DNA from: Sphingomonas psychrotolerans
GTDB lineage: Bacteria > Pseudomonadota > Alphaproteobacteria > Sphingomonadales > Sphingomonadaceae
Direction: 5' to 3'
Assembly: GCF_002796605.1 (NCBI RefSeq)
Contig: NZ_CP024923.1
Coordinates: 3,727,501 to 3,791,500, forward strand
Length of the DNA: 64,000 nt
Shown here: positions 604 through 19,536 of the stretch, piece after piece
Numbering within the stretch: position 1 is the first letter of the stretch
Layout: each line of letters begins with the position of its first letter
The notes under the pieces: generated by a model
What the model was told of the DNA's origin: nothing
What the model saw: only the letters and a program-made list of their open reading frames with translations
Database searches by the model: none
Translations under genes and position numbers: made by a program

Positions 604-620
604 GTCATACGTCATACGTC
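604..620. promoter_or_regulatory. Candidate GntR operator (tandem TCATACGTC)
   Basis: The sequence GTCATACGTCATACGTC holds two overlapping copies of TCATACGTC just upstream of the aldo/keto reductase and across the end of the amidohydrolase. The same 9-mer occurs at 9299-9313 and, inverted, at 19408-19422. It is probably a binding site for the GntR protein encoded at 1463-2203; that assignment is inference. Confidence 0.5.
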
Positions 621-1439: not shown

Positions 1440-1462
1440 CGTGCCGTGCCGCTTCGTGTCGA

Positions 1463-2294: not shown

Positions 2295-2312
2295 ATACAT
2301 AATACGTATTCT
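2295..2312. promoter_or_regulatory. Candidate GntR operator in divergent intergenic region
   Basis: AATACGTATT at 2301-2310 is a perfect 10-bp palindrome within TACATAATACGTATTC, between the divergent regulator (start 2203) and enolase-superfamily gene (start 2351). Its ATACGT core matches the other candidate operators in this region, which would allow autoregulation plus control of the 2351-7579 unit. Confidence 0.5.
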
Positions 2313-4755: not shown

Positions 4756-4756
4756 A

Positions 4757-4800
4757 CGTAATATGTATGATCATCATTTGACAGGTGATGCATATTATGG
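4757..4800. promoter_or_regulatory. AT-rich region with operator-like palindromes before TonB receptor
   Basis: This stretch contains ATATGTATGATCATCAT (4761-4777; ATGATCAT is self-complementary) and a second AT-rich element GATGCATATTATG. It resembles the ATACGT/TATGAC sites elsewhere in the locus and lies about 35-75 bases before the receptor start, so it is likely to contain a promoter or operator. The exact boundaries are uncertain. Confidence 0.35.
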
Positions 4801-4831
4801 TGGACGGGAGAAAATAATCGGAGGGGATAGC

Positions 4832-7579
4832 ATGACGTTTTCGGCCCGTAATTTTCGTGTCGCGTTGCTCGCGGCGCCCGCCTTGGGTGCCTTGCTGTGG
4901 AGCGGAGCCGCTGCCGCGCAGACGGTCGAACCGGTCGCGCAGACCACGGCTTCCGACCCCGCGTCTGAAGAAACCGACGAAATCGTCGTCACCGGCATCC
5001 GCGCCGCCGAGCGCGCCGCCATCGACATCAAGCGGAATTCGGTCGCGGTGGTCGATTCGATCGTCGCCGAGGATCTCGGCAAGCTTCCCGACGGCAACGT
5101 CGCCGAATCGCTCCAGCGCGTCTCCGGCGTCACGATCGAGCGCAATCGTGGCGAGGGGCGGTTCGTCACCGTCCGCGGCTTTGGTCCCAAATTCAACGCA
5201 GTCACGGTGAACGGCCGCACGCTGGCGACCGACAATAACGGGCGCGAATTCTCGTTCGACGTGCTGCCGTCCGAAATCATCTCGGGCGCCGACGTCTACA
5301 AATCGCCGCAGGCCAACATCAACGGCGCGTCGATCGGCGCCACCGTCGACGTCCGCACGCTGCGCCCGCTCGATCAAAAGACCGGGTTCAAGCTGGCGGG
5401 ATCGGCGTCGGGGATGTGGTCGGAGCTCGCCGACAGCTGGAATCCCGAATTCTCGCTGGTCGGCAGCTGGAAGAACGAGGCGGGCACCTTCGGGGTCGCG
5501 CTGGCGGGCGTCTATTCGGAGCAGGAGCACCGCTACGACGAATTCACGATCGGCGCCGGTCACGTTCGTCGATCAAGCACCGATTCCTATTATAATCGGG
5601 CCGGCGTCCCGGGCGGCCGCATCGGTCCGGGAGTCGCGCCGTTCAGCCGCGTCTCGATGCCGTCGAACCTGTCGCCGTTCTTCTTCGAGCGCGATTTGAC
5701 TCGCTGGGGCGCGAACGTATCGGTCCAGATGCGGCCGAGCGACAAGTTCACCGTCACCATCGACGGGCTGTATTCGAAGGCGCGCTTCGTCGAGCAGCAA
5801 ACCGGGCTCGCTTATGACTTCGCGGGCGGGACTCTCGCCGAGCAGGTCGTCGAGGGCGGAGAGGCCGTCTATCAGCGGTATGTCGGCGGCTTCGTCGACC
5901 AGATCATCCAGTATGACGATCGCGACGTCACCACCGATCAGCTCGGAATCAACGTCGACTGGCGCCCGACCGACGATTTGCGGCTTCGGCTTGACGGGTC
6001 GGTGTCCGATGCGCGCCGTCGCGGCAAGGAGAACAATCTGTTCACCACGATCCGGCGCAAGAATGTCGACCTTTCCTTCGATCGGCGCAGCGGCAGTCCG
6101 ATCTATGACTATACGTTCAGCAGCCCCAATTATGCGAACGCGGCCACCAATCCGCAGGGCGTGACCGCGCATTATTACATCTGGGGCGGCGGCGCCGACA
6201 TCGACGACGAGATCGAGGAATATCGCGGCGATGTGGAATGGAAGCCGGGCGGCGGCGCCTTCACCCTGAGCGCCGGCGCGATGGCGCAGAGCCGGATCAA
6301 GACGATCACCGCCGACGAGACGCCGTTCGGCGAGCAATGCGCCTATTGTGACTCGAATCGCGTGCTGCCGACGTCGCTTTTCCAGCCGACCAACCGCAAT
6401 TTCTTCTCCGGCGGCGGCGGCAACATTCTCCGCGACTGGCTGATCTACGATCCGCTCGCGCTGGTCCAGACCGTCGACCAGTTCGCCGCACAGGACGGCA
6501 AGGCGTTCAATCCGGCGGTGTTCTCTCCCTCGGCATCGTCGGTGGTCGATGAGAAGGTGCGGGTCGGTTATCTGATGGGGTCGCTCGACACGCAGATCGG
6601 CGGCATGCCGCTCGCGATCAATGTCGGGGTGCGCTACGAGAATACCGATTATACCTCGTCGGGCGCATCGCGCACCGTCACCAGCGCGCGTCCGAACGGG
6701 GCGGGGCAGAACATCATCGTCGTGTCGCCGGTGATCCCGGTCAGCTTCCGCGGGAAGTATGACGATTGGCTGCCGTCGCTCAACGCACGGCTGTCGCTCA
6801 CCGACAATCTGCTGCTGCGTTTCGCCGCCTCGAAGGTGCTGACGCGGCCGACCTTGTCCGATCTGTCGCCGCGCCAGTCGATCCAGACCAACCCGGGCAA
6901 CGAGACGATCCGTCGCGGCAACCCCGATCTGCAGCCGTTCCGCGCGAAGCAGGTCGAACTCGGCGCCGAATGGTATTTCGCGCCGGATTCGCTGCTGAAC
7001 GCCGCTGTTTTCTACAAGGACATCGAATCCTTCGTGACGTTGATCACCACGCCGCAGCTGGTCGATCAGGTCACCTTCCAGGTCACCGTGCCCGGCAACG
7101 GCAAGGGCGCGACGGTCAAGGGCTTCGAAGTCGGCTATCGCCAGTCGTTCGGGTCGTGGTTGCCGTCGCCGTTCGACGGCTTCGGCGTGCAGACCAGCTT
7201 CAATTACACCGAATCGAATGCGAACTATACCAACGCCGTCGCCAATGTGTCGTTCGGGCTCGAGGGGCTGTCGAAAACTTCGTACAGCCTCGTCGGCTTC
7301 TACGAGAAATACGGCATCTCGGCGCGCGCCGCTTATACCTATCGGGATAATTTCCTGCAGGTCGCGTCGGGGCGCAACGGCGAGCCGGAATATTTCGATG
7401 CCTATGGCCAGCTCGACGTCAGCCTGTCGTACGATATCGGATCGCACTTCACGGTCTTTGCCGACGCAGTGAATCTGAACAATGCCAAGGAATTCATCTA
7501 CTCGGTCAGCGCGGATCGGACCAAGGAGTTCCGCCAGACCGGCCGGCGCGTCTCGGCAGGTGCGCGCATCCGCTTCTGA
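4832..7579 (+). CDS. TonB-dependent receptor (Xanthomonas/Caulobacter type), carbohydrate locus
   Basis: A 915-residue outer-membrane receptor. The signal peptide ends near AAAAQT (about residue 29). The TonB-box-like EIVVTGIR follows, then a plug domain with LGKLPDGNVAESLQRVSGVTIER and VRGFGPKFN, then a 22-strand barrel ending in Phe (GARIRF), as porin-type barrels do. The IDIKRNS...IVAEDLGKLPD signature marks the TIGR01782-like group common in sphingomonads and often linked to oligosaccharide uptake. The start at MTFSARN has a strong GGAGGGG site; the upstream ATG at 4763 lacks one. Its position between a sugar transporter and a GH28-like enzyme suggests uptake of a plant-glycan fragment, which is inference. 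Confidence 0.92.
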   Translation: MTFSARNFRVALLAAPALGALLWSGAAAAQTVEPVAQTTASDPASEETDEIVVTGIRAAERAAIDIKRNSVAVVDSIVAEDLGKLPDGNVAESLQRVSGVTIERNRGEGRFVTVRGFGPKFNAVTVNGRTLATDNNGREFSFDVLPSEIISGADVYKSPQANINGASIGATVDVRTLRPLDQKTGFKLAGSASGMWSELADSWNPEFSLVGSWKNEAGTFGVALAGVYSEQEHRYDEFTIGAGHVRRSSTDSYYNRAGVPGGRIGPGVAPFSRVSMPSNLSPFFFERDLTRWGANVSVQMRPSDKFTVTIDGLYSKARFVEQQTGLAYDFAGGTLAEQVVEGGEAVYQRYVGGFVDQIIQYDDRDVTTDQLGINVDWRPTDDLRLRLDGSVSDARRRGKENNLFTTIRRKNVDLSFDRRSGSPIYDYTFSSPNYANAATNPQGVTAHYYIWGGGADIDDEIEEYRGDVEWKPGGGAFTLSAGAMAQSRIKTITADETPFGEQCAYCDSNRVLPTSLFQPTNRNFFSGGGGNILRDWLIYDPLALVQTVDQFAAQDGKAFNPAVFSPSASSVVDEKVRVGYLMGSLDTQIGGMPLAINVGVRYENTDYTSSGASRTVTSARPNGAGQNIIVVSPVIPVSFRGKYDDWLPSLNARLSLTDNLLLRFAASKVLTRPTLSDLSPRQSIQTNPGNETIRRGNPDLQPFRAKQVELGAEWYFAPDSLLNAAVFYKDIESFVTLITTPQLVDQVTFQVTVPGNGKGATVKGFEVGYRQSFGSWLPSPFDGFGVQTSFNYTESNANYTNAVANVSFGLEGLSKTSYSLVGFYEKYGISARAAYTYRDNFLQVASGRNGEPEYFDAYGQLDVSLSYDIGSHFTVFADAVNLNNAKEFIYSVSADRTKEFRQTGRRVSAGARIRF

Positions 7580-7629: not shown

Positions 7630-9255
7630 TCAGTCTCCCCAGGTCGTGACCTCGCCCAGCGCGACATCGCGGCTGTCGCGGGTGTCGAGCACGGCGTCGC
7701 GGAGCATCGGCGATGCGATCCCGTCGACGATCGCACCCTCGACGTTGCGCAAGGCGATGACCGGCCGGGCATCAGCGGCGGCGGTGCGCAGGCTGACGTC
7801 GCGGATCGTGAGCCGGCGGGCGTGGCGGGCATAGAAGCCGGCGGCGGGCAGGGTGCCAAGATAGCTGACTTCGAGGCTGGTTTCACGGCGATATTCGGGC
7901 ACGCGCGACGCGTCTTCGCGGGTGCCGCCGCCCTGCGCGGCGATGTCTATGTTGCGAAAGGTGACGTCCTCGACCGGGGCATCGGCGATGCCCTCGACTC
8001 CGCAGGGAAAGCGCGAATGCGCACCCGATACCGTGACATCCTCGAACCGTACCCGGCGGATCCGGCCTACCGGCGTGCCGCGCGGCGCGCGCATCCGGGC
8101 GCCGTGATGGACGAACAGCGGGTGATTGACCGGATCGCGCAGGATGATCCCCGATACCGACACGTCTTCCAGTGTCCCGCCATCGACGATCCCCATCAGG
8201 ATTCCGCGGCTGTTGGTGCAGATGCAATCGCTGATCCGGACATTGCGGAAGCCGCCATTGGTCTCGGTACCCAGCTTGATCCGGCCGAGCGGCCCGAGCT
8301 TGTCGGGAGAGAGATAGTCCGACGCACGATAGCTGCCGTCGAGCAAAGATCCCATCGCATAGCCGCTGGTCTTGCAGCCCGAGATCAATATGTCCTCGCA
8401 CATCACCGCGCGGCCGAGCGCGTAGCTGCTCTTCAGGACGATCGCGTCGTCCTTGGGCGCGTTGACTGTGCAGTTCACCACGCGCACGTCGCGGCATGCG
8501 TCGATATCGATGCCATCACGGTCGGTGTCGATCACCACACCGTCGATCTGCATGTTGGTGCAGCCGTGCGCGATTATTCCGAAATGTCCGGCCTGGAGGA
8601 TCGTGAACCCATCGAGCCGAACGTTGCGGCAGTTCATCAGACCGATCGTCTTGTTGGCGCGGCCGACCGGCGCCCGTTCTTTGGGGTCGCGCAACGCCAA
8701 TTCACGCGGCGTGATGCCGAGCGCGGCCGCCGACTGCCAGCCCCGGCGGGCATGCCAGCGATCTCCAGGACCTTCGCGATCGAGCCCGAGACCGTGGAGC
8801 ATGCCGGGGCCGAGGATCGAGACGTTGGAAACGCCGTCGCCGCGGATCAGGCTGTTGTGGACATGGGTGATCCCGAAATCCTGGAATTGCTCCTCCCTGT
8901 AGTTTTCCGGCGGATCATAATGCGCGCCGTGGGTGTCGGGATTGGCGGCCACGATTGTCGCGCCGGCGGACAGCACGAGCGCGATATTGTCGCGCAGCCG
9001 CAGCGTGAAGCACAGATAGCGGCCTGCGGGCACCACGACGGTGCCGCCGCCGCGCTTCGCTGCGGTCTCGATCGCGCGATTGATCGCCGGGCTGTCGATC
9101 GCCACGCCATCGCCGCGGGCACCATGGCGGCGGACATCTTCGAACACGCCCGTGGCGACGGCCTGCGCCTCGTCCGCCAGGCCGGCCGCGAGCAGCACGG
9201 CGCCCGTGCCGAGCAGGGTGGATCGACGGTTGATCAAAGTGGCGGCCGAAAACAT
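7630..9255 (-). CDS. GH28-like (polygalacturonase-type) secreted parallel beta-helix hydrolase
   Basis: A 541-residue protein starting at MFSAATLINRR, preceded by GGGAGAG. The N-terminus NRRSTLLGTGAVLL...EAQA looks like a Tat or Sec signal. An FEDVRRHGARGDG opening and repeated beta-helix coils follow. GH28-like elements are TDRDGIDIDAC, PKDDAIVLKS (paired Asp) and RIKLGTETNGG (the RIK-type substrate site). The family hydrolyses galacturonan or other pectin and rhamnogalacturonan bonds in the periplasm or outside. The divergent beta-helix gene at 9372 shares an operator with it. Activity on polygalacturonate itself is not assured, because GH28 also contains xylogalacturonan and rhamnogalacturonan enzymes. 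Confidence 0.82.
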   Translation of the reverse strand: MFSAATLINRRSTLLGTGAVLLAAGLADEAQAVATGVFEDVRRHGARGDGVAIDSPAINRAIETAAKRGGGTVVVPAGRYLCFTLRLRDNIALVLSAGATIVAANPDTHGAHYDPPENYREEQFQDFGITHVHNSLIRGDGVSNVSILGPGMLHGLGLDREGPGDRWHARRGWQSAAALGITPRELALRDPKERAPVGRANKTIGLMNCRNVRLDGFTILQAGHFGIIAHGCTNMQIDGVVIDTDRDGIDIDACRDVRVVNCTVNAPKDDAIVLKSSYALGRAVMCEDILISGCKTSGYAMGSLLDGSYRASDYLSPDKLGPLGRIKLGTETNGGFRNVRISDCICTNSRGILMGIVDGGTLEDVSVSGIILRDPVNHPLFVHHGARMRAPRGTPVGRIRRVRFEDVTVSGAHSRFPCGVEGIADAPVEDVTFRNIDIAAQGGGTREDASRVPEYRRETSLEVSYLGTLPAAGFYARHARRLTIRDVSLRTAAADARPVIALRNVEGAIVDGIASPMLRDAVLDTRDSRDVALGEVTTWGD

Positions 9256-9298
9256 GCGCTCTCCCGATGATAGCGCGCTTGCATGCGTGCTAAACATA

Positions 9299-9313
9299 AG
9301 ACATCATACGTCT
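9299..9313. promoter_or_regulatory. Candidate GntR operator AGACATCATACGTCT
   Basis: This 15-mer is identical, in inverted orientation, to the site at 19408-19422. It lies between the divergent GH28-like (start 9255) and beta-helix (start 9372) genes. An exact 15-base repeat placed before two separate minus-strand units strongly suggests a shared regulator-binding site. Confidence 0.65.
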
Positions 9314-9371: not shown

Positions 9372-11390
9372 ATGAACGCTGGCGCACCTCGATCGCCGAT
9401 CCGCGTCCCCCTGCGAACGGCGTTGGCAATGGTGGCATTGCTCTCGGCGACGAGCGCTCTCGCGCAGGCGGTGATCCACGTCGCGCCGAGCGGCGATGAT
9501 CGCGCGCTTGGCAGCAAGGCGCGCCCGGTCCGTTCGCTCGAACGCGCGCAGGCCTTGGCGCGCGCGGCCAATGCCGGTGGCGACGTCACCGTCGTCCTCG
9601 CCGACGGCACCTACAGCCTCGATCGGCCGCTCCGCTTTCGGGCCGCGGACGGGGGCCAGCGGGGCCACCATGTCGAATGGCGCGCCGCCGATGGCGCCCG
9701 GCCGATGCTGTCGGGCGGCCTGACGGTCAGCGGCTTTCGTCCCTATGACGAAGAGCGGCGGATCTGGGTTGCCGACGTGCCCAAGGGAGTCGATGCGCGC
9801 CAGCTCTGGGTCAACGATCAGCTCGCCGAGCGGCCGTGGATCGAGATCAAGGCCGCCGATCTGGCATTCAACGCCACCGGCTTCGACATCGTCAATCCCG
9901 ATCTGGCCTATGTCGCCGCGATCAAGCGGGCGGACCGGCTGGAAGTGGAGGCGACTGGCTTCTTCACCGATCGCTTTTCGCCGGTGAAGTCGATCTCGGG
10001 GCGCACGGTGACGATGCAGCAACCGGCGTGGGACAATAACAGCTGGGGCTACGACACGATCACCAAGCCGATCTTCCCGGCGGATTCGCGGCTGTTTCTC
10101 GTCAATGCGCTCGAGTTCATCGGCAAGGTGAATGACTGGCATGCGGGGACGTATCAGTGGTTCCTCGATCCGCAGGCGGGCAAATTATACCTCCGGATCG
10201 CGCAGGACGACGACATCAGGCGATTGAAGGTGGTGCTGCCGCGGCTCGATGCGCTGGTCTCGATCGCCGGGACGCCGGCGGCGCCGGTCGAGCGGCTGGC
10301 GTTCCGGGGCCTGCGTTTCTCGTACACCAGCTGGATGGGGCCCTCGCAGCCGACCGGCTATGCCAATCAGCAGAGCGGCGCCTTTCTGTCCGAAACCTCG
10401 CCGATCCGGCCGGCAGCGGCATGGCAGAGCTGTGGCTGGGGCTGCGTCGAGTTCGAATCGATGCGTCAGCGCTGGAACCAGATGCCCGCCGCTGTCCAGG
10501 TCGCCGCCGCGCGTGACGTCACCTTTGAGAATAACCGCTTCACCCAGCTCGGCCAGATCGCGCTCGGGATCGGCAACGACGCCAATGCGAATTTGAGCGG
10601 CGTCGGTCTCGCCACCGCGCGGATACGAGTCGCGCGCAATCATTTCGCGGTCCTGTCGGGCAGCGCGATCATGGCGGGCGGTATTCGCGTCGACGCGCAC
10701 CATGCCGGCGACCCTGCGCTGGTCAACCGCGACCTCGTCATCGAGGACAACAATGTCGCGACCGTGAGCCAGGACTATAAGGACAATGCCGCGATCCTGA
10801 CCACCTACATCAGCGGCGCGCGGATCGCGCACAACGATGTGAGCGACGCGCCGTATGACGGCATCGCGGTCGGCTGGGGCTGGGGCTATAACGATGCCGG
10901 CGGCAATCCGAATTACGACGAGAACCAGAAGGGTTATGTCCACAACACGCGCTACACCACCCCGACCACGCTGCGCGACACAGTGGTGGAGAACAACCGC
11001 ATCCACGGGGTGAAGACGTGGTTCATGGATGGCGGCGCGATCTACAATCTGTCGGCCAATCCCGGCGCGGTGATCCGCGGCAACCACATCTTCGACATTG
11101 ACGACAAGATCGCGATCTATCTCGACGAAGGCAGCAAGCATTTCCGGGTGACCGGGAACGTCGTCGAGACGCGCGGCAAGTGGCTCAACATCAACACCGC
11201 CGGCAAGATGTTCCGGCGGCGGATCTCGACCGACAATCTGGCGACCGGTAACTGGCACAATTCGGATGCCACCGGCGGGCGCTGGCTCACCGAGATCGGC
11301 AACACCGAGCGCGATAACCCCCTCATCCCCGACCGCGACTGGCCCGCCGAGGCGAAGGCAGTGATCGCCAATGCGGGCGTCCGCCGCTGA
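9372..11390 (+). CDS. Secreted right-handed parallel beta-helix protein, GH141-like candidate glycosidase
   Basis: A 672-residue protein with a Sec signal ending at SALAQA. AVIHVAPSGDDRALGSKARPV follows, then LADGTYSLDRPL, an opening typical of DUF1565/GH141-type parallel beta-helix proteins. Coils with repeated ENNRF, EDNNVA and ENNRIHG motifs run through residues 370-640. GH141 founders act on plant cell-wall side chains (fucose or xylose linkages in rhamnogalacturonan II and xylan), but family membership here is inference from the overall pattern. It is divergent from the GH28-like gene and is followed by a clear terminator. A lyase or a non-catalytic binding role is possible. Confidence 0.75.
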   Translation: MNAGAPRSPIRVPLRTALAMVALLSATSALAQAVIHVAPSGDDRALGSKARPVRSLERAQALARAANAGGDVTVVLADGTYSLDRPLRFRAADGGQRGHHVEWRAADGARPMLSGGLTVSGFRPYDEERRIWVADVPKGVDARQLWVNDQLAERPWIEIKAADLAFNATGFDIVNPDLAYVAAIKRADRLEVEATGFFTDRFSPVKSISGRTVTMQQPAWDNNSWGYDTITKPIFPADSRLFLVNALEFIGKVNDWHAGTYQWFLDPQAGKLYLRIAQDDDIRRLKVVLPRLDALVSIAGTPAAPVERLAFRGLRFSYTSWMGPSQPTGYANQQSGAFLSETSPIRPAAAWQSCGWGCVEFESMRQRWNQMPAAVQVAAARDVTFENNRFTQLGQIALGIGNDANANLSGVGLATARIRVARNHFAVLSGSAIMAGGIRVDAHHAGDPALVNRDLVIEDNNVATVSQDYKDNAAILTTYISGARIAHNDVSDAPYDGIAVGWGWGYNDAGGNPNYDENQKGYVHNTRYTTPTTLRDTVVENNRIHGVKTWFMDGGAIYNLSANPGAVIRGNHIFDIDDKIAIYLDEGSKHFRVTGNVVETRGKWLNINTAGKMFRRRISTDNLATGNWHNSDATGGRWLTEIGNTERDNPLIPDRDWPAEAKAVIANAGVRR

Positions 11391-11426: not shown

Positions 11427-11462
11427 GGCCGCTGCGCCTCAACGGCGCGGCGGCCTATTTTT
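11427..11462 (+). terminator. Rho-independent terminator after beta-helix gene
   Basis: GGCCGCTGCGCC, a TCAAC loop and GGCGCGGCGGCC form a 12-bp stem with one mismatch, followed by TATTTTT. It ends the plus-strand unit at 11390. It also lies against the 3' end of the convergent eight-gene operon, whose last stop is at 11462. Confidence 0.8.
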
Positions 11463-12265
11463 CAGGCAATCAGGTTCCGGTCGACGTCGAGGCGCAGCAC
11501 CAAATCCGCGCGTGCCGGCATTTCGTCGAGGATCCAGCACGTCAGCCGCTCATAATGCGCGACGAACCGCAGTACGGCGGGGGCATCCATCAGGCCCGCC
11601 GTACTGCGGCCCTGTGCTTCGAGCGTTCGCCGGAGCGCTTCCTCCTGCTCGAGGCGCCAGCGCGCGACGATCTCGAAGCCCGGCGCAGCGAGGAGGACCA
11701 GACGGTCGATCCGCGCGAACAACTCGGCATATCCCGTGCACAGGGCAGCGTTGACCGCGCGACGCCAGCTGCCGTCGGGATCCGCGTCGCGTTCGAGGGC
11801 ATTGATCGGTGCCGCGACGGCGGCGTCGTCCTGCGCGCGGGCGCCGACGCACCAGCCTTCGAAGATCAGCAGGTCGAGCTTGGCCGGGACAGGCTGGCGC
11901 TGCGCTTCGGGTTCGTCGCGAGCCTTGTCGAAACGCGGGAAGGACGTGGCCTCGCGACCCCGCACCGCGTCGAGCAACGCAATTCCGTGGGCAACGTCGT
12001 GCGTCAGCGGAACCCCGCGCGTGCGCAGCAACGGGTGGATGTCCCGCGCCGTTGCCGCCCGCGCATGGCCCGACAGATAGAGATCATCGAGTGAGAGGAG
12101 TGCGGTGGCGATACCGCGCGCCTCCATCCGGTCGCGCAGTCCCTTCGCGAGGGTCGATTTGCCCGATCCCTGCGCACCGCACAGACCGAGAATCAAAGGC
12201 CGGCCCGTCCCGGAATCGAGCCAGCCGCGAACGGCCGCCTCGACGCGATCAAGCGACCCGGTCAC
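11462..12265 (-). CDS. Glycerate-kinase-like P-loop kinase
   Basis: A 267-residue protein read from GTG at 12265 (VTGSLDRVEAAV), overlapping the end of the upstream dehydrogenase by 17 bases. The longer frame to 12418 is out-of-frame Arg/Cys-rich sequence. A Walker A GLCGAQGSGKST is followed by LLSLDDLYLS and RGVPLTHDVAHG, then a RFDKARDE loop and LLIFEGWCVGA. This is the pattern of plant-type D-glycerate 3-kinase (GLYK) and related uridine-kinase-like proteins. As the last gene of the operon beside a hydroxypyruvate/glyoxylate-reductase-like enzyme, it would plausibly phosphorylate glycerate into central metabolism. The substrate is inferred. Confidence 0.78.
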   Translation of the reverse strand: MTGSLDRVEAAVRGWLDSGTGRPLILGLCGAQGSGKSTLAKGLRDRMEARGIATALLSLDDLYLSGHARAATARDIHPLLRTRGVPLTHDVAHGIALLDAVRGREATSFPRFDKARDEPEAQRQPVPAKLDLLIFEGWCVGARAQDDAAVAAPINALERDADPDGSWRRAVNAALCTGYAELFARIDRLVLLAAPGFEIVARWRLEQEEALRRTLEAQGRSTAGLMDAPAVLRFVAHYERLTCWILDEMPARADLVLRLDVDRNLIA

Positions 12266-13205
12266 GCGGCGGCGCACCCGCGAAGAAGGCGTCGAGATTG
12301 TCGGTGACGCGCATCCCCATCGCAATGCGCGTCTCGCGCGTCGCGCTGCCGAGGTGCGGCAGCAGCACCGCATTGGGGCAGGCGAGCAGTGCCGGCCCCA
12401 CCCGCGGCTCGTTCGCATAGACGTCGAGCCCCGCGGCCGCGATCGTCCCTCTCGTCAGCGCCGATACGAGCGCGGCCTCGTCGACCAAGGTGCCGCGTGC
12501 GGTGTTCACCAACACGGCCGTCGGGCGCATCGCCGACAGGAAGGCGGTGTCGACCATGTGCCGCGTCGCGTCGCCACCGGGTGCATGGAGCGAGACGACA
12601 TCGGAATCGGCTGCGAGCGCAGCGGGCGTCGCGCGATAGGCCTCTGCCGGCATGTCGTCGGCTGGGTGGCGGCTATGATAGATCACCGTCATCCCGAACG
12701 CCCGCGCACGAACGGCGGTCGCGCGCGCGATGCGGCCATAGCCGATCAGCCCGAGCGTCTTGCCGCCAAGGCTGGTGCCGAGCAGATGCGTCGGCCGCCA
12801 ACCCGACCATTCCCCGGCACGCAACTCGCGCTCGCCTTCGGACGCGCGGCGGGTGGCCATCAGGATCAGCATCATCGCGATATCGGCGGTTGCATCGGTC
12901 AGTACGTCGGGGGTGTTGGTGACAATGATCCCAGCGGTGCGGGCAGCGTCCAGGTCGATATGTTCGAAACCGGCGCCGTAATTGGCGATGATCCGGGCGC
13001 GGCGATCACTGACTGCAACGATGTCCTGGGGCAGCCGGTCGGTCACGGTCGGGCAGACCGCGTCATAATCGCGCATCGCGGCGGCAAAAGCGGCGGCGTC
13101 CAGCGGGAGATCGTCGAGATTGGCCGTCACGTCGTAGCGTTCGGCCAGTCGATCCTCGACTTCCGCCGGCCAGCGCCGGGTCAGCAGGATTCGCGGGCGG
13201 CTCAC
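12249..13205 (-). CDS. D-2-hydroxyacid dehydrogenase (glyoxylate/hydroxypyruvate reductase-like)
   Basis: A 318-residue cytoplasmic NAD(P)-dependent oxidoreductase. The start is GTG at 13205, overlapping the preceding stop as GTGA. The Rossmann motif GLIGYGRIARATAVRA sits near residue 150. The catalytic residues are Arg in VNTARGTLVDE, Glu in YANEPRV and His in LLPHLGSAT. Family members interconvert glyoxylate/glycolate, hydroxypyruvate/glycerate or other 2-oxo/2-hydroxy acids. With the kinase encoded next it could form a hydroxypyruvate to glycerate to phosphoglycerate step. The link is by context; formate- or phosphoglycerate-dehydrogenase-type substrates cannot be excluded. Confidence 0.87.
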   Translation of the reverse strand: MSRPRILLTRRWPAEVEDRLAERYDVTANLDDLPLDAAAFAAAMRDYDAVCPTVTDRLPQDIVAVSDRRARIIANYGAGFEHIDLDAARTAGIIVTNTPDVLTDATADIAMMLILMATRRASEGERELRAGEWSGWRPTHLLGTSLGGKTLGLIGYGRIARATAVRARAFGMTVIYHSRHPADDMPAEAYRATPAALAADSDVVSLHAPGGDATRHMVDTAFLSAMRPTAVLVNTARGTLVDEAALVSALTRGTIAAAGLDVYANEPRVGPALLACPNAVLLPHLGSATRETRIAMGMRVTDNLDAFFAGAPPRDRVA

Positions 13206-14368
13206 AACAGCCCGCGGGCGGCGAGATTGCGCATCAAATCCGCAATGCCGAACGCCCATGGCGCACATGCATCGGTCGCCGTCACGCGGTTGACCAGCGC
13301 GCCGAGCGGATCGCAGCTGATCCGCACGACGTCGCCCTCGTGATGGGTGAAGCCCTTGCCCTCGGCATCGCGATCTTCGGTCGGTGCGAACATGGTGCCG
13401 AGATAGAGCACGAGCCCGTCGGGATAGCGATGGTGCGCGTTGATCGCCTGCGCGACGAGATCGGCGGGCGGCCGGCTGATCGCCGACATCGCCGATCGGC
13501 CCTCGAGCACGAAACCGTCGGTGCCGGTGACTGTCAAGGCCACGTCCGCCGCTTCCACATCGGCGAGCGCGAAACGATGGTCGAACAGCCGTACGAACGG
13601 CCCGACTGCGGCGGCGCCATTATTGTCCTTGGCCTTGCCCAGCAACAGCGCCGATCGTCCCTCGACGTCGCGCAGATTGACGTCATTGCCCAGGGTCGCA
13701 CCGACGATCCGACCGGTCGAGGCGACGATCAGCACGATCTCGGGCTCCGGGTTGTTCCAGCTCGAGGCCGGGTGGACGCCGATCTCGGCCCCGACGCCGA
13801 CCGTCGATAGCGGCTGGGCCTTGGTGAAGATTTCCGCGTCGGGGCCGATCCCCACCTCGAGATATTGGCTCCACGCGCCCGCTGCGATCAGCGCATCCTT
13901 GAGTGCCATCGCCTCGGCCGAGCCGGGGCGCAACCGGCGGAGATCGTCGCCGACGAGCGCACGGACTTGCTCGCGGATACCCGTGGCGGCGTCGGCATCG
14001 CCGCGCGCGCGCTCCTCGATCACGCGTTCGAGCATCGAGGTCGCGAAGGTCACCCCCGCCGCCTTCACTGCCTGGAGGTCGATCGGCGACAGCAGCCACG
14101 GGCGGCGTTCGTCGCGATCATGCGGGTCGGTGTTGGCGAGGATTTCAGTGAGTGGCCCGATATCCTCTCCCGGCGCATCGCGCAGCACCGCGGCGGGGTC
14201 GGTTGCCTCGCAGACATCGCGTGCGGTGGCGAAGACCGCACTGATGTCGATCAGGCGATCGCCATGGACGCGGACCGGCGAAGGGCCGCAGCGATCGGGA
14301 CGCCAGACGCGGCCGAGCAGCAATGCGTCGCGGTCGCGCGGCAGAATGTCGTCAGGGTCCAGCAGCAT
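13202..14368 (-). CDS. Fumarylacetoacetate hydrolase family protein, 2-keto-3-deoxy-pentonate dehydratase-like (XylX type)
   Basis: A 388-residue protein with a C-terminal FAH fold. The region TKAQPLSTVGVGAEIGVHP, NNPEPEIVL and GNDVNLRDVEGRSALLLGKAKD gives the acidic metal ligands and substrate loop. The length and these motifs match the long FAH subgroup that includes Caulobacter XylX-like 2-keto-3-deoxy-sugar-acid dehydratases rather than the roughly 280-residue acylpyruvases. It would act on a 2-keto-3-deoxy aldonate made by an upstream dehydratase. It is separated by two bases from the enoyl-CoA hydratase gene and overlaps the dehydrogenase start, so it sits mid-operon. Hydrolytic C-C cleavage of a diketo acid is the main alternative. 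Confidence 0.82.
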   Translation of the reverse strand: MLLDPDDILPRDRDALLLGRVWRPDRCGPSPVRVHGDRLIDISAVFATARDVCEATDPAAVLRDAPGEDIGPLTEILANTDPHDRDERRPWLLSPIDLQAVKAAGVTFATSMLERVIEERARGDADAATGIREQVRALVGDDLRRLRPGSAEAMALKDALIAAGAWSQYLEVGIGPDAEIFTKAQPLSTVGVGAEIGVHPASSWNNPEPEIVLIVASTGRIVGATLGNDVNLRDVEGRSALLLGKAKDNNGAAAVGPFVRLFDHRFALADVEAADVALTVTGTDGFVLEGRSAMSAISRPPADLVAQAINAHHRYPDGLVLYLGTMFAPTEDRDAEGKGFTHHEGDVVRISCDPLGALVNRVTATDACAPWAFGIADLMRNLAARGLL

Positions 14369-14370
14369 GT

Positions 14371-15141
14371 TCAGCGCCTTTTGAAATCGGGTGCGCGCTT
14401 TTCGGCGAAGGCGGCCCGGCCCTCGCGGGCGTCGTCGGTCGCGAAGCAGATCGCCTGCAGATCGCGTTCATATTCGATCGCCTTGTCCCACGGCATCGTG
14501 AACGCGGCGCGCAAATTGAGCTTGGCGGTCTCCGCGGCGATCGGCGCGCGCGATGCGATGACGCCTGCAATCTCGTGGGCGCGCGCGACGAGGCGATGGG
14601 GGGCCAGAATTTCGCTGACCAGCCCCCATGCCAGCGCGCGATCGGCGTCGATCATGTCGCCGGTCAGCAGCATCATGGCGGCGTTCGAAGTGCCGACGGA
14701 ATAGGCCAGCCCCGCGGCCATGCCGCCGCCGCCGATCCAGCCGAGCTTGATCTCGGGCGCGGCGAAGCGGGCGTTGGTGGAAGCAATGCGGATGTCGCAG
14801 GCCATCGCGGTCTCCAGCCCGCCGCCTAGCGCATAGCCGTTGATCGCGGCGATCACTGGCTTGCGGCACGCGCGCAGGGCGTCGCAATAATCGGCGCGGT
14901 TGCGGAAATCCCATGCGGTCGCATAGCCGTCGAGCGTAGTGATGTCCGATCCGGCGCTGAACGCCTTCTCGCCCGCGCCGGTCACCACGACGGCACGCAC
15001 AGCGTCCGAGGCGTTGCACTCCGCGACGGCCGCGACCAGCGCGCTCGCCATCGCAGGAGTCATCGCATTCAGCTTGTGCGCGCGATCGATCAGGATCGTC
15101 GCGACGCGATCCTGAATCGTGAAGCGCAGGTCTTCGGTCAT
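14371..15141 (-). CDS. Enoyl-CoA hydratase/isomerase (crotonase) family protein
   Basis: A 256-residue crotonase-fold protein. The oxyanion-hole segments are FSAGSDITTL and NGYALGGGLE. Both catalytic glutamates of classical hydratases are kept (GGGLETAMACDI and AAPEIKLGW), so water addition or elimination on an acyl-CoA is feasible. Its ATG overlaps the stop of the upstream solute-binding-like gene (ATGA). Together with the CaiB transferase two genes upstream, it implies that a CoA thioester is made and then hydrated or dehydrated. That is unusual for a sugar-acid locus. The acyl group is unknown. Confidence 0.85.
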   Translation of the reverse strand: MTEDLRFTIQDRVATILIDRAHKLNAMTPAMASALVAAVAECNASDAVRAVVVTGAGEKAFSAGSDITTLDGYATAWDFRNRADYCDALRACRKPVIAAINGYALGGGLETAMACDIRIASTNARFAAPEIKLGWIGGGGMAAGLAYSVGTSNAAMMLLTGDMIDADRALAWGLVSEILAPHRLVARAHEIAGVIASRAPIAAETAKLNLRAAFTMPWDKAIEYERDLQAICFATDDAREGRAAFAEKRAPDFKRR

Positions 15142-16256
15142 GTTTCCACTCCGGGAATATGATGTCGGGAATAAGCAGCTTCGACTGCGTCGAGCACCGG
15201 GTCGGCCGGCGACCCATCGAGCAGACCGGCGCGCAATAGCGCGGAGGCCTCGGTCTGGAACGCGATGGCATGGTCATGGCGCGGACGGACCAACGCTGTC
15301 TCGATTGTCGCGCGCGTGGCGCTGTAGAAACCCCCGGCGGCGGCATCGACCCGCGGGTCGGTCCAGGCGGATCGCAGCGACGGCTGGCCATCGTGCGTGG
15401 GAATGAAGTCGCGCTGCACGGCGTCGGACATCAGCCAGCGGAGATGCTCGAGCAGCTCCGGCGTCACCTTCGCGCGGCGCGATACGGCGATGCCGGTGCC
15501 GCCGAGGGTCGATCCGATCCGGCCGCCGGGTCCACGCGGCGCGTCGGCATAAGCGATGGTGCCGCGCGCCGAATAGTTCACATAGCCGTAGATCAGCGGA
15601 CACAAAGCCGGCCCGTCCCCCGAGGCCATCGCCTCGAGCATCGCGATCGGATTGAGACCCGCCGCGCGGCGCGTGGCATCGCCGGTCAGGCGTGCGAGGA
15701 TCGCATAGGCCAGGCGGGCAACGGCGCGGTCGAGGAAGCCGTCGCGCGGCTGGGGCGGCTCGGCACCGAGCGCGCCGCACGCAGACTGGAAACTGAGCGC
15801 GGCATGCGGGCCGGCGAGCGACAGCGCCACGGGCGCACGTTCGGCGAGCGCGATCACTGCATCCCAGCTGGCTGGCGGATTTTCGGCGAAGTCACGGCGA
15901 TATGCCATCACCTGCGTCGCGGCATCGAGCGGCAGCGCCCAGTGTCGGCCCGCATAAAGATAGCTTTCCAGCGACGGACCGATCGCCGCATTGCCCCATT
16001 GCGCGAGTTCGTCGCCCGCGAAGAGATCCTCGAGCGGGACGAGGCAATCGGCCGCGACTGCTTCGCCGACATGCGGATGGTCGAGCACGACGAGATCGTA
16101 GAGCGCGCATTGCTCGGCGATCGATCGGGACTCGAAGCCTTCGAGCGAATGCTTGTCCCACGCGATCGCCACGTCGCACGCGGCGTCCGCCGCGGCGGCG
16201 AGCGCATTGTAGCCGCGCGGGTGATCCCAAGTGAGACCGCGATATTTTTGCGTCAT
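15138..16256 (-). CDS. Extracellular-solute-binding-protein-like protein without signal peptide
   Basis: A 372-residue protein resembling type-1 carbohydrate ABC solute-binding proteins. It has DLVVLDHPHVGEAVAADCLVP-like and LPLDAATQVMAYRRD segments, then PPASWDAVIALAE. Unlike a transport binding protein it has no signal peptide or lipobox: it starts directly at MTQKYRGLTWDHPRGYNAL, with the ATG overlapping the CoA-transferase stop. No ABC permease or ATPase gene is near. The ORF is tightly embedded between CaiB and enoyl-CoA hydratase genes, so a cytoplasmic role is implied: an enzyme on a binding-protein scaffold, a chaperone or a ligand sensor. The function is not known to me. Confidence 0.75.
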   Translation of the reverse strand: MTQKYRGLTWDHPRGYNALAAAADAACDVAIAWDKHSLEGFESRSIAEQCALYDLVVLDHPHVGEAVAADCLVPLEDLFAGDELAQWGNAAIGPSLESYLYAGRHWALPLDAATQVMAYRRDFAENPPASWDAVIALAERAPVALSLAGPHAALSFQSACGALGAEPPQPRDGFLDRAVARLAYAILARLTGDATRRAAGLNPIAMLEAMASGDGPALCPLIYGYVNYSARGTIAYADAPRGPGGRIGSTLGGTGIAVSRRAKVTPELLEHLRWLMSDAVQRDFIPTHDGQPSLRSAWTDPRVDAAAGGFYSATRATIETALVRPRHDHAIAFQTEASALLRAGLLDGSPADPVLDAVEAAYSRHHIPGVET

Positions 16257-17443
16257 ATGTGCTGGCGTACCACGCCCGATTCGACCAGCCGATCGATCGC
16301 GTCGAGGTCCAGCCCCAGCTCGGTCAGCACCTCACGGCTATGTTCGCCGACCAAGGGCGCACCGCGGTCGATCTGCGACGGAGTTTTCGAAAAGCGGATC
16401 GGGAAGCCTGGCGTCTTCACCCGGCCTTCGGTCGGATGCTCATATTCGACGAAGGTGCCGTTGTGCTTGATCTGCGGATCGTCGACGAGCTCGGCATAGC
16501 CATAGACCGGGCCTGCCCAGATATCGGCGGCGCGGAAGCGGTCGAGCCATTCGGCGCTGGTCGCCGACAGCAGCTTGGCCTTCACATGCGCGAAGATCGC
16601 GTCGCGGTGCGTCCAGCCATCGGTCTGGTCGTCCATGTCGGCGAAGAACGGATCGTCGAGCAACGCGCCGAGCTTGGCCAGCGGTGCCATCGCCAGTGTG
16701 ATATAGCCGTCGCTGGTCTGGAACACGCCGTAGGGCGCGCGGATATAGCTGTGGGCGTGCGCCTCGGCCGAGCGCGCCTGTGGCTTGCCGCCGACCGTGA
16801 ACACCGACAATTCCTGCATCTGGATCGTCGTGATCGCATCGAGCATGTTGATCTGGACCAATTGGCCCTCGCCGGTGCGTTCGCGGTGGAACAAGGCGGC
16901 GAGCGCCCCCTCGAACGCTGAATAGGCCGTCACTGCGTCGACCAGATATTGCCCGGCGGGGGAGGGCGGTTGCCCCTCCGCACCCGCCGACAGCATCGCG
17001 CCCGACATGCCCTGCAGCAGCAGATCCTGTCCGGGATAGCTGCGATAGGGGCCGTCTTCGCCATAACCCGACATCGAGATGTAGATCAGCCGTGGATTGA
17101 TCGCCGACAGCGTCGCGTAATCGACCCCCAGCCGCTCGGCGACGCCGGGACGGTAATTCTGCAGGAAGACGTCGGCGGTCTTGACCATCTCGACCAGCAA
17201 CGCCTTGCCCTCGGCCGCCTTCAGGTCGACCGCGAGCGAGCGCTTGTTGCGATTGAGCGACAGGAACGAGACGTTGATCTGGTTGCCGGTCGCGCCGCCG
17301 GCCGCGGCGTGGCGCTGCCATTCGCCCGAGGTCGGCTCGACCTTGATGACGTCGGCGCCGAGATCGCCGAGGCGCTGCGCGGCGAACGGTCCGGCCATCG
17401 CGATCGAGCAATCGAGCACGCGGATGCCGCTGAGGATATTCAT
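16253..17443 (-). CDS. CaiB/BaiF family (class III) CoA-transferase
   Basis: A 396-residue class III CoA-transferase. The N-terminal GIRVLDCSIAMAGPFAAQ and DLGADVIKVEP motifs, the LSLNRNKRSLAVDLK segment and the catalytic Asp169 in GQYLVDAVTAY (the position used by formyl-CoA transferase) are all visible. It would move CoA from a donor thioester to a free acid in the cytoplasm. It lies 15 bases after the SDR gene and overlaps the solute-binding-like gene. With the crotonase downstream, it suggests activation of a sugar-derived acid as a CoA ester. Donor and acceptor are unknown. Confidence 0.88.
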   Translation of the reverse strand: MNILSGIRVLDCSIAMAGPFAAQRLGDLGADVIKVEPTSGEWQRHAAAGGATGNQINVSFLSLNRNKRSLAVDLKAAEGKALLVEMVKTADVFLQNYRPGVAERLGVDYATLSAINPRLIYISMSGYGEDGPYRSYPGQDLLLQGMSGAMLSAGAEGQPPSPAGQYLVDAVTAYSAFEGALAALFHRERTGEGQLVQINMLDAITTIQMQELSVFTVGGKPQARSAEAHAHSYIRAPYGVFQTSDGYITLAMAPLAKLGALLDDPFFADMDDQTDGWTHRDAIFAHVKAKLLSATSAEWLDRFRAADIWAGPVYGYAELVDDPQIKHNGTFVEYEHPTEGRVKTPGFPIRFSKTPSQIDRGAPLVGEHSREVLTELGLDLDAIDRLVESGVVRQHI

Positions 17444-17458
17444 GGGTATCGCTGGTCC

Positions 17459-18205
17459 TTAGGCCATGACCCAGCCGCCGTTGACGTGCAGCGTCTGGCC
17501 GGTGATGAAGCTCGCCTCGTCGGCGGCGAAGAAGGCGATCGCCGCGGCGATGTCCTCGGCCGATCCGCGACGCTTGATCGACTGCGCGTCGAGCACCATG
17601 CGGTTATAGCCTTCGGGATCGGGGTGAATCTTCTCGGCGTCGGTCGGGAAGGCGCCGGGCGCGATCGCGTTGACGGTGATGCCGTACGGACCGAATTCGC
17701 GTGCCCATGCCCGCGTCAGCCCAATCAGCGCGCCCTTCGACGCGACATAAGGCGACAGGTTCGCCCAGCCGCCCGAGATGGTGATGCTCGATATGTTGAC
17801 GATGCGGCCGAAGCCGCGCGCGCGCATCCCCGGCAACGCCGCCTGCACCGCGACCACGCCGGCATCGACGTTCACCCGCTGGACGAACTGATGCTCCTCG
17901 ATCGTGTAGTCCTCGAAGGGTTTCGACGGATAGATCGCGGCGTTGTTGACGACGACATCGAAGCCCCCGAGTTCGGCGATCAACCGGTCGAGTTCGGCAC
18001 GGAAGCCCCCGAGGTCCGAGAGATCGGCGGTCGAAACGACGAGCCGACCGGTCTCGACCGCGGCGGCTGCGTCGCGCAGCTTCGCAACCTTGGCGGGATC
18101 GTTGTCGATCGCGACCACGGTCGCGCCGCGCCGCATCAACAACAGACTGGTATCGAGGCCGAGCCCGCCCGCCGCGCCGGTGTAGAGGATCGTGCGGCCC
18201 TTCAT
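17459..18205 (-). CDS. SDR-family oxidoreductase
   Basis: A 248-residue classical short-chain dehydrogenase. The start at MKGRTILYTGAAGGLG overlaps the DUF4432 stop (ATGA); the frame extends further upstream without a start that fits the family. The nucleotide-binding TGAAGGLGL, the NNAA motif (residues about 88-91), the catalytic Ser in NISSIT, YVASK with the Tyr-Lys pair and the C-terminal ITGQTLHVNGGW are present. The DNDP segment after the second strand favours NAD. It would oxidise a secondary alcohol of a sugar acid or lactone. In L-fucose and L-rhamnose oxidative routes an SDR acts on the 2-keto-3-deoxy acid, a reasonable but unproven model here. Confidence 0.87.
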   Translation of the reverse strand: MKGRTILYTGAAGGLGLDTSLLLMRRGATVVAIDNDPAKVAKLRDAAAAVETGRLVVSTADLSDLGGFRAELDRLIAELGGFDVVVNNAAIYPSKPFEDYTIEEHQFVQRVNVDAGVVAVQAALPGMRARGFGRIVNISSITISGGWANLSPYVASKGALIGLTRAWAREFGPYGITVNAIAPGAFPTDAEKIHPDPEGYNRMVLDAQSIKRRGSAEDIAAAIAFFAADEASFITGQTLHVNGGWVMA

Positions 18206-19383
18206 GCCAAGCATCCGGGGATCGCGGGGAAGTTGCCGCTGGGTTGCGGATATTCCGCGTCGGGCTGGCGCGCCACGCGCTCGATCCGGGCGACGGCATC
18301 GGACACCGAAGCGGCGTTCGGCAGGGTGCGCAGCACCGTATCGTAGCGGCGCTCGTCGCCATGCTCGAGCCAGATCAGTTCGCCGCGCTCGCGCGCAAAA
18401 TCCTTGCCGAGGACATGGTTGGTCGATGGCTCGATGCCGAGCGCATAATGGCCGGCGTGGAAGTTCTGCCACTGATACATTGCCGGGAACTGGCTCTTGA
18501 GCGTCTCGACCTCGAAGCCGAAGCCGAGCCGCTCGTTGACCAGAGCGACGTTGACGCGACCGTCGCCGTCGGCGGCCATGTCGTGCTGCCAGACCTGCTC
18601 GTGGAAATTGGTGATCGGGGCGGGGGCGGTGCGATAGCCGACGCCCTGCGCTTCGTACTTATCCGCGTGCGCCGCCCACAACACCTCGCGGATCGGCGCG
18701 ACGTAGCGCGATCCTTCGGCGAGCACCGGATGGCCGACATTGATGTGGTAGCAATACATGTGCGGCGTGCGGTAAAAGCCATGGTTGACCACGCGATCGT
18801 GCAGGCGGATCTCGTCGCTGCCGACATTTGCCTCGATGCGGCGGATCAGATGCAGATCCTCGCCGAACACGGTCGATTGTTGGACCACGCCCTCAGCCCA
18901 CAGCACGCACTCGTCGCCCTCCCAGCGCTCGCCATAGCCGGTGAGGCGCGCGGGGATCGTCCCGACGCGGCCGTGCAGCGACGACGACACGGTTTTGCGG
19001 GGGCCGTAGAAATAATGGCCCGCGGGGTCGTCGTGCATGAACAAAGTATGGTCGAGGCCGCAGGTGATGTTGAGGCCGGACATCGAACGGAACCAGCCGA
19101 GCCCCCCTTCGCCTTCATAATCGTGGAGGCCGGGATGCCGGAAACCCGATGGCGAGTGCCAGCCGATTGCGCGGCCGGCATGTTCGCATTCGGCGATGTC
19201 CATGGCGCGGTCGATCAGCACGGTGAAGCGCAGGCCGGTGCCGGTGCGGAACTCGAGTCGGCGGACGCCGCGCTCGACGCCGTCGCCGAGCGTCGAAAGC
19301 TGCACCCCGGCGAATTGCGACAGGCTGCCGGTCCGTTCGGCGAGCGCCCGCCGCGACAATCTCTCGCCGAATAGCGCGACCAC
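18202..19383 (-). CDS. DUF4432 (aldose-1-epimerase-like) protein, first gene of catabolic operon
   Basis: A protein of about 393 residues with the DUF4432 galactose-mutarotase-like fold. FTVLIDRAMDIAECEHAG, MYCYHINVGHPVL and LGIEPSTNHVLG are the recognisable conserved blocks, the last carrying the likely catalytic Glu. The family includes sugar or sugar-lactone isomerases and epimerases acting on carbohydrate rings. I chose the GTG at 19383 because GGAGGGG lies five bases before it and the candidate operator (19408-19422) then lies upstream rather than inside the gene. The ATG at 19446 is the alternative. It leads the eight-gene operon running to 11462. Confidence 0.78.
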   Translation of the reverse strand: MVALFGERLSRRALAERTGSLSQFAGVQLSTLGDGVERGVRRLEFRTGTGLRFTVLIDRAMDIAECEHAGRAIGWHSPSGFRHPGLHDYEGEGGLGWFRSMSGLNITCGLDHTLFMHDDPAGHYFYGPRKTVSSSLHGRVGTIPARLTGYGERWEGDECVLWAEGVVQQSTVFGEDLHLIRRIEANVGSDEIRLHDRVVNHGFYRTPHMYCYHINVGHPVLAEGSRYVAPIREVLWAAHADKYEAQGVGYRTAPAPITNFHEQVWQHDMAADGDGRVNVALVNERLGFGFEVETLKSQFPAMYQWQNFHAGHYALGIEPSTNHVLGKDFARERGELIWLEHGDERRYDTVLRTLPNAASVSDAVARIERVARQPDAEYPQPSGNFPAIPGCLA

Positions 19384-19407: not shown

Positions 19408-19422
19408 AGACGTATGATGTCT
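19408..19422. promoter_or_regulatory. Candidate GntR operator AGACGTATGATGTCT
   Basis: This is the exact reverse complement of the 15-mer at 9299-9313. It lies 25 bases before the GTG start of the DUF4432-led operon. A position overlapping or next to the promoter fits repression by the local FCD-type GntR protein. Confidence 0.65.
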
Positions 19423-19486: not shown

Positions 19487-19536
19487 TATGTTTTGGAGCC
19501 GGAAAGAGTCATAAAGATGTGTCGGGGAGAGAGCCG

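Follow-up and report, generated by a model that had tools for sequence, protein, structure and literature searches.

A conserved set of CoA-transferase, solute-binding-fold and hydratase genes that may dehydrate sugar acids in Sphingomonas psychrotolerans and its relatives

An operon of eight genes in a 64,000-nucleotide stretch of the Sphingomonas psychrotolerans genome (contig NZ_CP024923.1, positions 3,727,501 to 3,791,500; hereafter the window) brings together proteins of oxidative sugar metabolism, a class III coenzyme A (CoA) transferase (CaiB) and a crotonase. We suspect that the operon specifies an oxidative route for a sugar in which a CoA-dependent middle step dehydrates the sugar acid, a reading to which we assign a probability of about 0.45. 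The core of the operon is a trio made up of CaiB, a solute-binding-protein-like protein (SBPl) and the crotonase. An earlier sequence-only reading had proposed that sugar-acid and CoA-ester chemistry are joined here, and the two do form one conserved unit, preceded by an operator motif common to pectinase-like genes. That reading overlooked the place of the solute-binding-like gene, which is a core member of the set and not a transporter part lying beside enzymes.

The operon runs on the minus strand from 19383 to 11462 of the window, in a genome of 5.04 Mb on two contigs, and its place, its open frames and its gene families (matched by Pfam or by solved relatives) bear out the sequence-only reading. 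Gene starts were assigned by eye. The first gene (18202..19383, GTG start at 19383) encodes an aldose-epimerase-like DUF4432 protein (PF14486, 322 bits), presumably a mutarotase. It is followed by a short-chain dehydrogenase/reductase (SDR; 17459..18205, ATG at 18205), a putative aldose 1-dehydrogenase whose best solved relative is pyridoxal 4-dehydrogenase (3ndr, E 2e-41) and whose best NCBIfam match scores 188 bits at a cut-off of 325. CaiB (16253..17443, ATG at 17443; PF02515, 360 bits) reaches the cut-off of none of the seven listed NCBIfam models, and SBPl (15138..16256) matches the solute-binding families PF13416 and PF01547 with 37 and 32 bits. Next come the crotonase, of the enoyl-CoA hydratase family (14371..15141; PF00378, 198 bits), and a long FAH protein of the 2-keto-3-deoxypentonate dehydratase type (FAHL, 13202..14368; PF01557), which is close to 9kkt (E 2.8e-126) and more distant from the KDA dehydratase 2q18 (E 1.9e-17). 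The last two genes encode a D-2-hydroxyacid dehydrogenase resembling glyoxylate/hydroxypyruvate reductases (12249..13205; PF02826/PF00389; NF009714, 270 bits, cut-off 455) and a P-loop kinase resembling D-glycerate 3-kinase (11462..12265, GTG at 12265), the best solved relative of which is the D-glycerate 3-kinase 7xpc (E 4.5e-11).

The eight genes are closely packed: there are four 4-base overlaps, gaps of 15 and 2 bases and one 17-base overlap, so that every junction is an overlap or a gap of 17 bases or less. The overlaps read ATGA at the DUF4432/SDR, CaiB/SBPl (16256) and SBPl/crotonase (15141) junctions and GTGA between FAHL and the hydroxyacid dehydrogenase (13205), and the gaps separate SDR from CaiB (15 bases) and the crotonase from FAHL (2 bases, 14368). 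The earlier description of 4-base overlaps or gaps of at most 15 bases is thus accurate for all junctions except the one before the kinase, where the overlap is 17 bases given the GTG at 12265 as the kinase start.

Homologous loci were gathered from named genomes with SBPl as the probe, and the best 80 of 82 confirmed loci were taken, all of them therefore picked by SBPl. Genes were counted with the window proteins as queries, a match having to cover no less than 70% of the query, and homologue clusters were built on mechanically called open reading frames (ORFs). The loci (numbered with L below) are mostly alphaproteobacterial, with single Verrucomicrobiota and Ferruginibacter metagenome-assembled genomes (MAGs). 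These best 80 of 82 loci hold SBPl in 80 cases, the crotonase in 78, CaiB in 75, SDR in 59, DUF4432 in 50, FAHL in 30, the kinase in 18 and the hydroxyacid dehydrogenase in 17; loci in which a match of at least 70% is missing for CaiB (L017, L056, L071, L077 and L087) or for the crotonase (L084 and L087) were all kept in the counts. In 74 of the 80 loci no more than 300 bases separate CaiB from SBPl, and the junction between the two measures -20 to +30 bases in 60 of the 77 loci that have them on the same strand. The order DUF4432-SDR-CaiB-SBPl-crotonase is found on one strand in 44 of these 80 SBPl-picked loci, which puts the operon beyond chance, and it recurs in sphingomonads, Nitrospirillum, rhizobia, rhodobacters and a Verrucomicrobiota MAG.

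Conservation was also measured outside the sphingomonads. Over 63 non-sphingomonad loci, median identity to the window proteins, where present, is 74% for CaiB, 69% for both DUF4432 and the crotonase, 67% for SDR, 59% for FAHL and 54% for SBPl. The last two genes behave differently, the hydroxyacid dehydrogenase occurring in 4 of the 63 and the kinase in 4, and they are nearly restricted to the sphingomonad group and Nitrospirillum-type loci. By homology, the neighbours of the trio include aldose dehydrogenases (SDR or other), putative mutarotases (DUF4432 or another family, of 361 residues, labelled by eye and with no Pfam match) and three families of lactonases. The simplest arrangement is that of six Azospirillum loci (L040, L052, L058, L060, L062 and L063), which consist of LacI, CaiB, SBPl, crotonase, FAHL, an aldehyde dehydrogenase and an ABC transporter.

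A phylum-wide draw of genomes provides further SBPl sites. SBPl was found in 18 of 398 genomes, the window's own genome included, and of the 21 other sites drawn, one repeats L042 and was left out, leaving 20 new sites. CaiB lies within 2 kb of SBPl at 17 of the 20, and a hydratase lies within 6 kb at all 17 of those: MaoC at 14 and the crotonase at 4, with both at one site. These counts come from tblastn with some query ORFs carrying out-of-frame extensions, and the MaoC matches were not each confirmed by Pfam (two MaoC proteins elsewhere were). At the other three sites crotonase, CaiB, SDR and an ABC transporter are on the same strand, and CaiB and crotonase start 7-9 kb from SBPl. Genomes with SBPl have 5.1 copies of CaiB on average (76 in 15 genomes), and we therefore estimate the chance of CaiB-SBPl adjacency at about 0.5% per site.

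MaoC and crotonase have unrelated folds and catalyze the same type of reaction. The window's own genome holds what we regard as a MaoC version of the trio, at G000:C1:2777646-2785227 (L098), with a second SBPl (45% identical), two CaiB, a MaoC hydratase and a ribose-type ABC transporter. MaoC, CaiB, SBPl and crotonase stand together at L066, and L084 has MaoC, CaiB and SBPl without crotonase; we read both as intermediate states of an exchange of hydratases. Two MaoC-type loci (L108:3225-4415 and L114:15689-16879) encode a second protein of solute-binding fold (PF01547, 113 and 108 bits) with no signal peptide detectable by eye, and L112 has a homologue of it as well. Such loci possibly have two cytosolic binding-fold proteins in one system.

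The active site of the crotonase agrees with a hydratase. Glu110 and Glu130, the hydratase glutamates of the crotonase, are kept in 75 of 75 aligned sequences, as the sequence-only reading had it for the window protein, and Asp169 of CaiB, which we take to be the catalytic aspartate, is present in 96 of 96 aligned ORFs; these alignments include some loci fetched twice (e.g., L027/L102 and L038/L106). The window's own feruloyl-CoA hydratase/lyase (54839-55675) has glycine at the position of the first catalytic glutamate. SBPl has the predicted structure of a sugar-binding protein. No signal peptide or lipobox was seen by eye (without a predictor) in the SBPl N-termini, and the homologues start directly at the first strand. 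His12, Arg14, Asp54, Asp59, His62, Asp111 and Arg326 of SBPl are invariant.

Since both hydratase glutamates are kept and MaoC substitutes for the crotonase, we consider it well supported, if indirectly, that the reaction is a hydration or dehydration of an acyl-CoA and not a cleavage. Given the aldose dehydrogenase, mutarotase and lactonase companions, the substrate of the trio is probably an aldonate. FAHL follows downstream, with only the crotonase between it and SBPl in 24 of the 80 named loci (24 of 24 checked), and 15 of the 30 FAHL loci have an aldehyde dehydrogenase no more than 1 kb from it. One of these FAHL-adjacent dehydrogenases reaches 539 bits with the alpha-ketoglutaric semialdehyde dehydrogenase model (cut-off 770); among the operon's own eight genes there is no alpha-ketoglutarate-semialdehyde dehydrogenase. 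According to PMC6336799, long FAH proteins of the COG3970 type convert D- or L-2-keto-3-deoxypentonate to alpha-ketoglutarate semialdehyde. In the 80 named loci tblastn with eight queries found no IlvD/EDD dehydratase (UxaA/GarD-type enzymes were not searched), and 26 of the 30 FAHL loci have neither an IlvD/EDD nor an enolase-type dehydratase. The companions, the FAHL downstream and the lack of IlvD/EDD together suggest that the trio takes the position of the aldonate dehydratase, and in the simplest relatives its product seems to feed the reactions that lead from 2-keto-3-deoxypentonate to alpha-ketoglutarate.

From this arrangement we infer the following scheme. DUF4432 and SDR would take an aldose to the lactone and the aldonate; this aldose is probably a pentose or has a similar configuration. 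CaiB, through an acyl intermediate on Asp169, would transfer CoA to the aldonate. SBPl, formerly a sugar-binding protein and now cytosolic, may bind the polar sugar acid and present it to the CoA-transferase, or complete that enzyme. The crotonase would then remove the C2 proton and the C3 hydroxyl of the aldonyl-CoA to give the enol of a 2-keto-3-deoxyaldonyl-CoA, from which CaiB would hand the CoA to the next aldonate and release 2-keto-3-deoxyaldonate, as in carnitine CaiB/CaiD. FAHL could convert this product to alpha-ketoglutarate semialdehyde, and the last two genes may salvage a compound at the level of glyoxylate, hydroxypyruvate or glycerate.

A wider claim, which we put forward with less confidence, is that CaiB, a cytosolic subunit of sugar-binding fold and either a crotonase or a MaoC protein may form a widespread undescribed machine that eliminates water (methanol in the case of 3-O-methyl sugars) from CoA thioesters of sugar acids. 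Next to the metal-dependent IlvD/EDD and enolase types, it would be a third way to dehydrate aldonates, one in which a protein once used for transport has been built into an enzyme and the two hydratase folds serve sugars with opposite configurations at C3.

Several observations weigh against dehydration of an aldonyl-CoA. We know of no sugar-acid CoA ester, and the active-site residues are equally compatible with hydration, the direction not being readable from sequence. The aldehyde dehydrogenase of the Azospirillum loci scores only 94 bits against 2,5-dioxovalerate dehydrogenase (cut-off 750). Of the 17 sphingomonad-group loci only 4 have a full-length FAHL, and at just 1 of the 20 new sites does it lie within 6 kb. 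Its presence in a genome proved uninformative about the trio, FAHL being found in 9 of 9 SBPl-positive and in 35 of 51 SBPl-negative genomes of the same genus (own genome left out); it occurs somewhere in all 17 SBPl genomes tested, own included. Enzymes leading to a C5 product also leave the glycerate-type last two genes unexplained. These genes suggest a product at the level of glycerate or hydroxypyruvate, and our guess is that they would suit the cleavage of a non-deoxy hexose into pyruvate and glycerate.

An enolase-type dehydratase, too, is in the cluster in 21 of the 80 named loci and in the window itself (2351-3502, outside the operon). Sixteen of the 21 are sphingomonad or Nitrospirillum-type loci and the rest are L039, L048, L070, L072 and L090; several drawn sites have the gene as well, often together with rhaM. 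The trio is therefore not a plain replacement for the enolase-type enzyme in these clusters, where its substrate has to be a different sugar or the same sugar in a different form. As for the identity of the sugar, the binding proteins of two ABC transporters were tried and had no close solved relative (one hit at E 2.4e-12 in one case; ten hits, the best at E 1.7e-26, in the other), and we therefore claim no ligand.

The operon shares its promoter motif with the polysaccharide genes around it. The sequence-only reading placed the operon behind one operator, and an operator-like motif, AGACATCATACGTCT, is indeed found in perfect form before DUF4432 (19408..19422, minus strand). It is found at four further promoters of the cluster, which that reading did not report: in perfect form in the divergent promoters of the GH28/GH141-like genes (9299..9313, plus strand) and of the GntR and enolase-superfamily genes (2295..2309, plus strand), and with two mismatches before a TonB-dependent receptor (4754..4768, minus strand) and before an aldo/keto reductase (607..621, plus strand). 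Scanned as AKACATMATACGTMT, it has zero mismatches at 2295, 9299 and 19408 and two at 607, 4754 and 2302, the last of which overlaps the 2295 site. At three mismatches or fewer the window has 9 matches, some sites being counted once per strand; 1.84 would be expected, and all of 100 shuffles stay below 9.

Genome-wide there are three perfect matches, all of them inside this cluster, as are 6 of the 10 sites with at most two mismatches; a reversed control gave 1. The motif precedes DUF4432 in all 13 of the related loci L017-L029 and in none of L030-L038. Thirty scanned sequences contain 55 matches, and when each was shuffled once the total was 1; the motif is absent from 12 of the thirty (L030-L038, L048, L106 and L107). 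Because the same motif precedes all these promoters, the operon, the GH28/GH141-like genes, the TonB receptor and the L-fucose-type genes probably constitute one regulon, and the operon is thus probably induced together with the polysaccharide genes. A candidate for the protein that binds the motif is the GntR/FCD regulator encoded at 1463..2203 (minus strand).

The dehydration reading has to be set against four other explanations. The least improbable of them, and in our estimation an unlikely one, has the trio hydrate the CoA ester of an unsaturated or deoxy sugar acid, which another dehydratase of the cluster might, for example, supply. Crotonases and MaoC enzymes are established to run both ways, and the enolase-type dehydratase has the same operator motif as the operon; yet the minimal Azospirillum loci have no enzyme ahead of the trio that would make an unsaturated acid, and there the 2-keto-3-deoxypentonate dehydratase homologue comes after it. 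We think it a little less probable again that the trio is devoted to another sugar from the same polysaccharide, one beyond the reach of the ordinary L-fucose-type genes, for instance an O-methylated or epimeric acid, which would lose methanol or water from its CoA ester and join the same pool of 2-keto-3-deoxy acid. This would account for the one operator motif before both gene sets, the trio operon and the L-fucose-type genes, and for the enolase-type gene and rhaM near the trio in other groups (L070, L072, L090, L186, L187 and L195-L197). However, no gene or structure indicates a methyl group, and 59 of the 80 named trio loci have no enolase-type gene within 10 kb.

Cleavage is less probable still. 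In this case a 3-hydroxyacyl-CoA would undergo retro-aldol splitting to a short acyl-CoA (e.g., glycolyl-CoA) and a carbonyl compound that feed the hydroxyacid dehydrogenase and the glycerate kinase. Feruloyl-CoA hydratase/lyase, of the same superfamily, is established to perform such a cleavage, and the last two genes suit a C2/C3 product. Against this, the crotonase retains, in 75 of 75 sequences, the glutamate that the lyase lacks, MaoC takes its place elsewhere, and the dehydrogenase and the kinase are each found in only 4 of the 63 non-sphingomonad loci. Retro-aldol cleavage to glycolyl-CoA from an apiose-like sugar was the explanation we first favoured, and it was dropped on the active-site comparison and the MaoC exchange. 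For the same reasons the cutting of the CoA ester to a C2/C3 acid, as proposed in the sequence-only reading, is not supported, the crotonase having the signature of a hydratase and not of a lyase and MaoC substituting for it in paralogous loci. Very improbable, finally, is an SBPl that is an ordinary binding protein of a transporter with a mis-called signal peptide, the CoA genes being a passenger unit for fatty or organic acids. Databases often name SBPl relatives 'extracellular solute-binding protein', and the predicted fold is that of sugar-binding proteins; but the start of SBPl overlaps CaiB by 4 bases, the two genes meet at -20 to +30 bases in 60 of the 77 same-strand loci, the homologues begin straight at the first strand, and CaiB and a hydratase are linked to SBPl at all 20 new sites when same-strand operons are counted.

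The closest parallel for CoA-dependent dehydration is the L-carnitine system, in which CaiB is a CoA-transferase and CaiD is crotonobetainyl-CoA hydratase. There, too, a class III CoA-transferase with a catalytic aspartate stands beside a crotonase, and the operon studied here would likewise remove water from the CoA ester of a 3-hydroxy acid and reuse the CoA. The operon's CaiB, in contrast, scores 149 bits against the L-carnitine CoA-transferase equivalog model (cut-off 413), sugar genes stand in place of the cai genes, and to our knowledge SBPl has no counterpart in the L-carnitine system. Route III for L-fucose and L-rhamnose resembles other parts of the same cluster, which has an aldo/keto reductase, an L-fuconolactonase-like lactonase, an enolase-type dehydratase, an SDR and rhaM, and two promoters of these genes (607 and 2295) bear the operator motif. 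We know of no use of CoA in Route III, and its short FAH hydrolase was not seen beside the cluster. The Weimberg-type Route II (PMC6336799) shares with the trio loci an aldose dehydrogenase, a long FAH (by homology) and, in the relatives, an aldehyde dehydrogenase; the trio loci differ in carrying CoA genes at the position of IlvD/EDD, and the main text of that paper contains no word starting with 'CoA'. SBPl resembles periplasmic sugar-binding proteins such as LpqY (7ape) in its predicted fold, and differs from them in lacking a signal peptide, in its genetic tie to CaiB and in its own invariant residues. The operon crotonase belongs to the same superfamily as the feruloyl-CoA hydratase/lyase at 54839-55675, which has glycine in place of its first catalytic glutamate.

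To the left of the operon the sugar genes resemble an L-fucose-type oxidative route in their family assignments. They begin with the aldo/keto reductase (2..559, minus strand), which exits the window, is complete in L097 and was assigned to its family from a homologue; beyond the window it is followed by an SDR and rhaM (L097). An Amidohydro_2 lactonase resembling L-fuconolactonase (612..1535, minus strand; NF052480, 145 bits, cut-off 400) and the GntR/FCD regulator come next, and on the plus strand the enolase-superfamily protein, which resembles sugar-acid dehydratases (best match 169 bits, cut-off 500; PF13378 on a homologue), an MFS-type transporter (3538..4755, start approximate; weak NCBIfam transporter matches and reading of the translation) and the TonB-dependent receptor (4763..7579). 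A GH28-like beta-helix protein of the pectinase family (7630..9297, minus strand) and another beta-helix protein (9372..11390, plus strand; glycoside hydrolase BT_1002, 5mqp, E 3e-33), presumably GH141-like, complete the polysaccharide genes. The short FAH hydrolase that acts on the 2,4-diketo-3-deoxy acid, the last enzyme of the L-fucose route, is not beside the cluster; one homologue lies 1.35 Mb off (G000:C1:2376040), and in G018 (L101) one lies within about 20-30 kb of the operon.

Divergent from the operon, at 19480-21113 on the plus strand, a DUF5060 ORF (19480-19863) overlaps an apiosidase-like/DUF5605 ORF (19830-21113) in another frame, and the pair looks like a single glycosidase broken by a frameshift or a sequencing error. 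The sugar cluster is adjoined at 21142-27011 by a copper-resistance block with CopB (PF05275, 272 bits) and, by reading of their translations, multicopper-oxidase-like and metal P-type ATPase-like ORFs. Hydroxycinnamate or lignin-type genes occupy 52674-62869 on the minus strand, including an acyl-CoA ligase family member, an aldehyde dehydrogenase, an aromatic-acid MFS transporter, a p-hydroxycinnamoyl-CoA hydratase/lyase (456 bits, cut-off 276) and a class III extradiol dioxygenase (531 bits, cut-off 317).

In the open-access literature searched, which leaves most subscription journals outside its coverage, we found no description of a trio of CaiB, SBPl and a hydratase, and no paper on xylonyl-, aldonyl-, arabinonyl-, gluconyl-, ribonyl- or galactonyl-CoA. 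The marker gene, SBPl, occurs in roughly 4% of the species sampled from the window's phylum (17 of 397, not counting the window's own genome) and in single MAGs of two other phyla (L092 and L096). If CoA-dependent dehydration is correct, sugar acids would be degradable via CoA thioesters, a route that pathway tools seeking only metal-dependent dehydratases would overlook. It would also give a function to the SBPl family (at least 240 matches, perhaps many more), which is often labelled as extracellular and whose examined members have no export signal, and it would offer a defined operon for testing how a binding protein becomes part of an enzyme.

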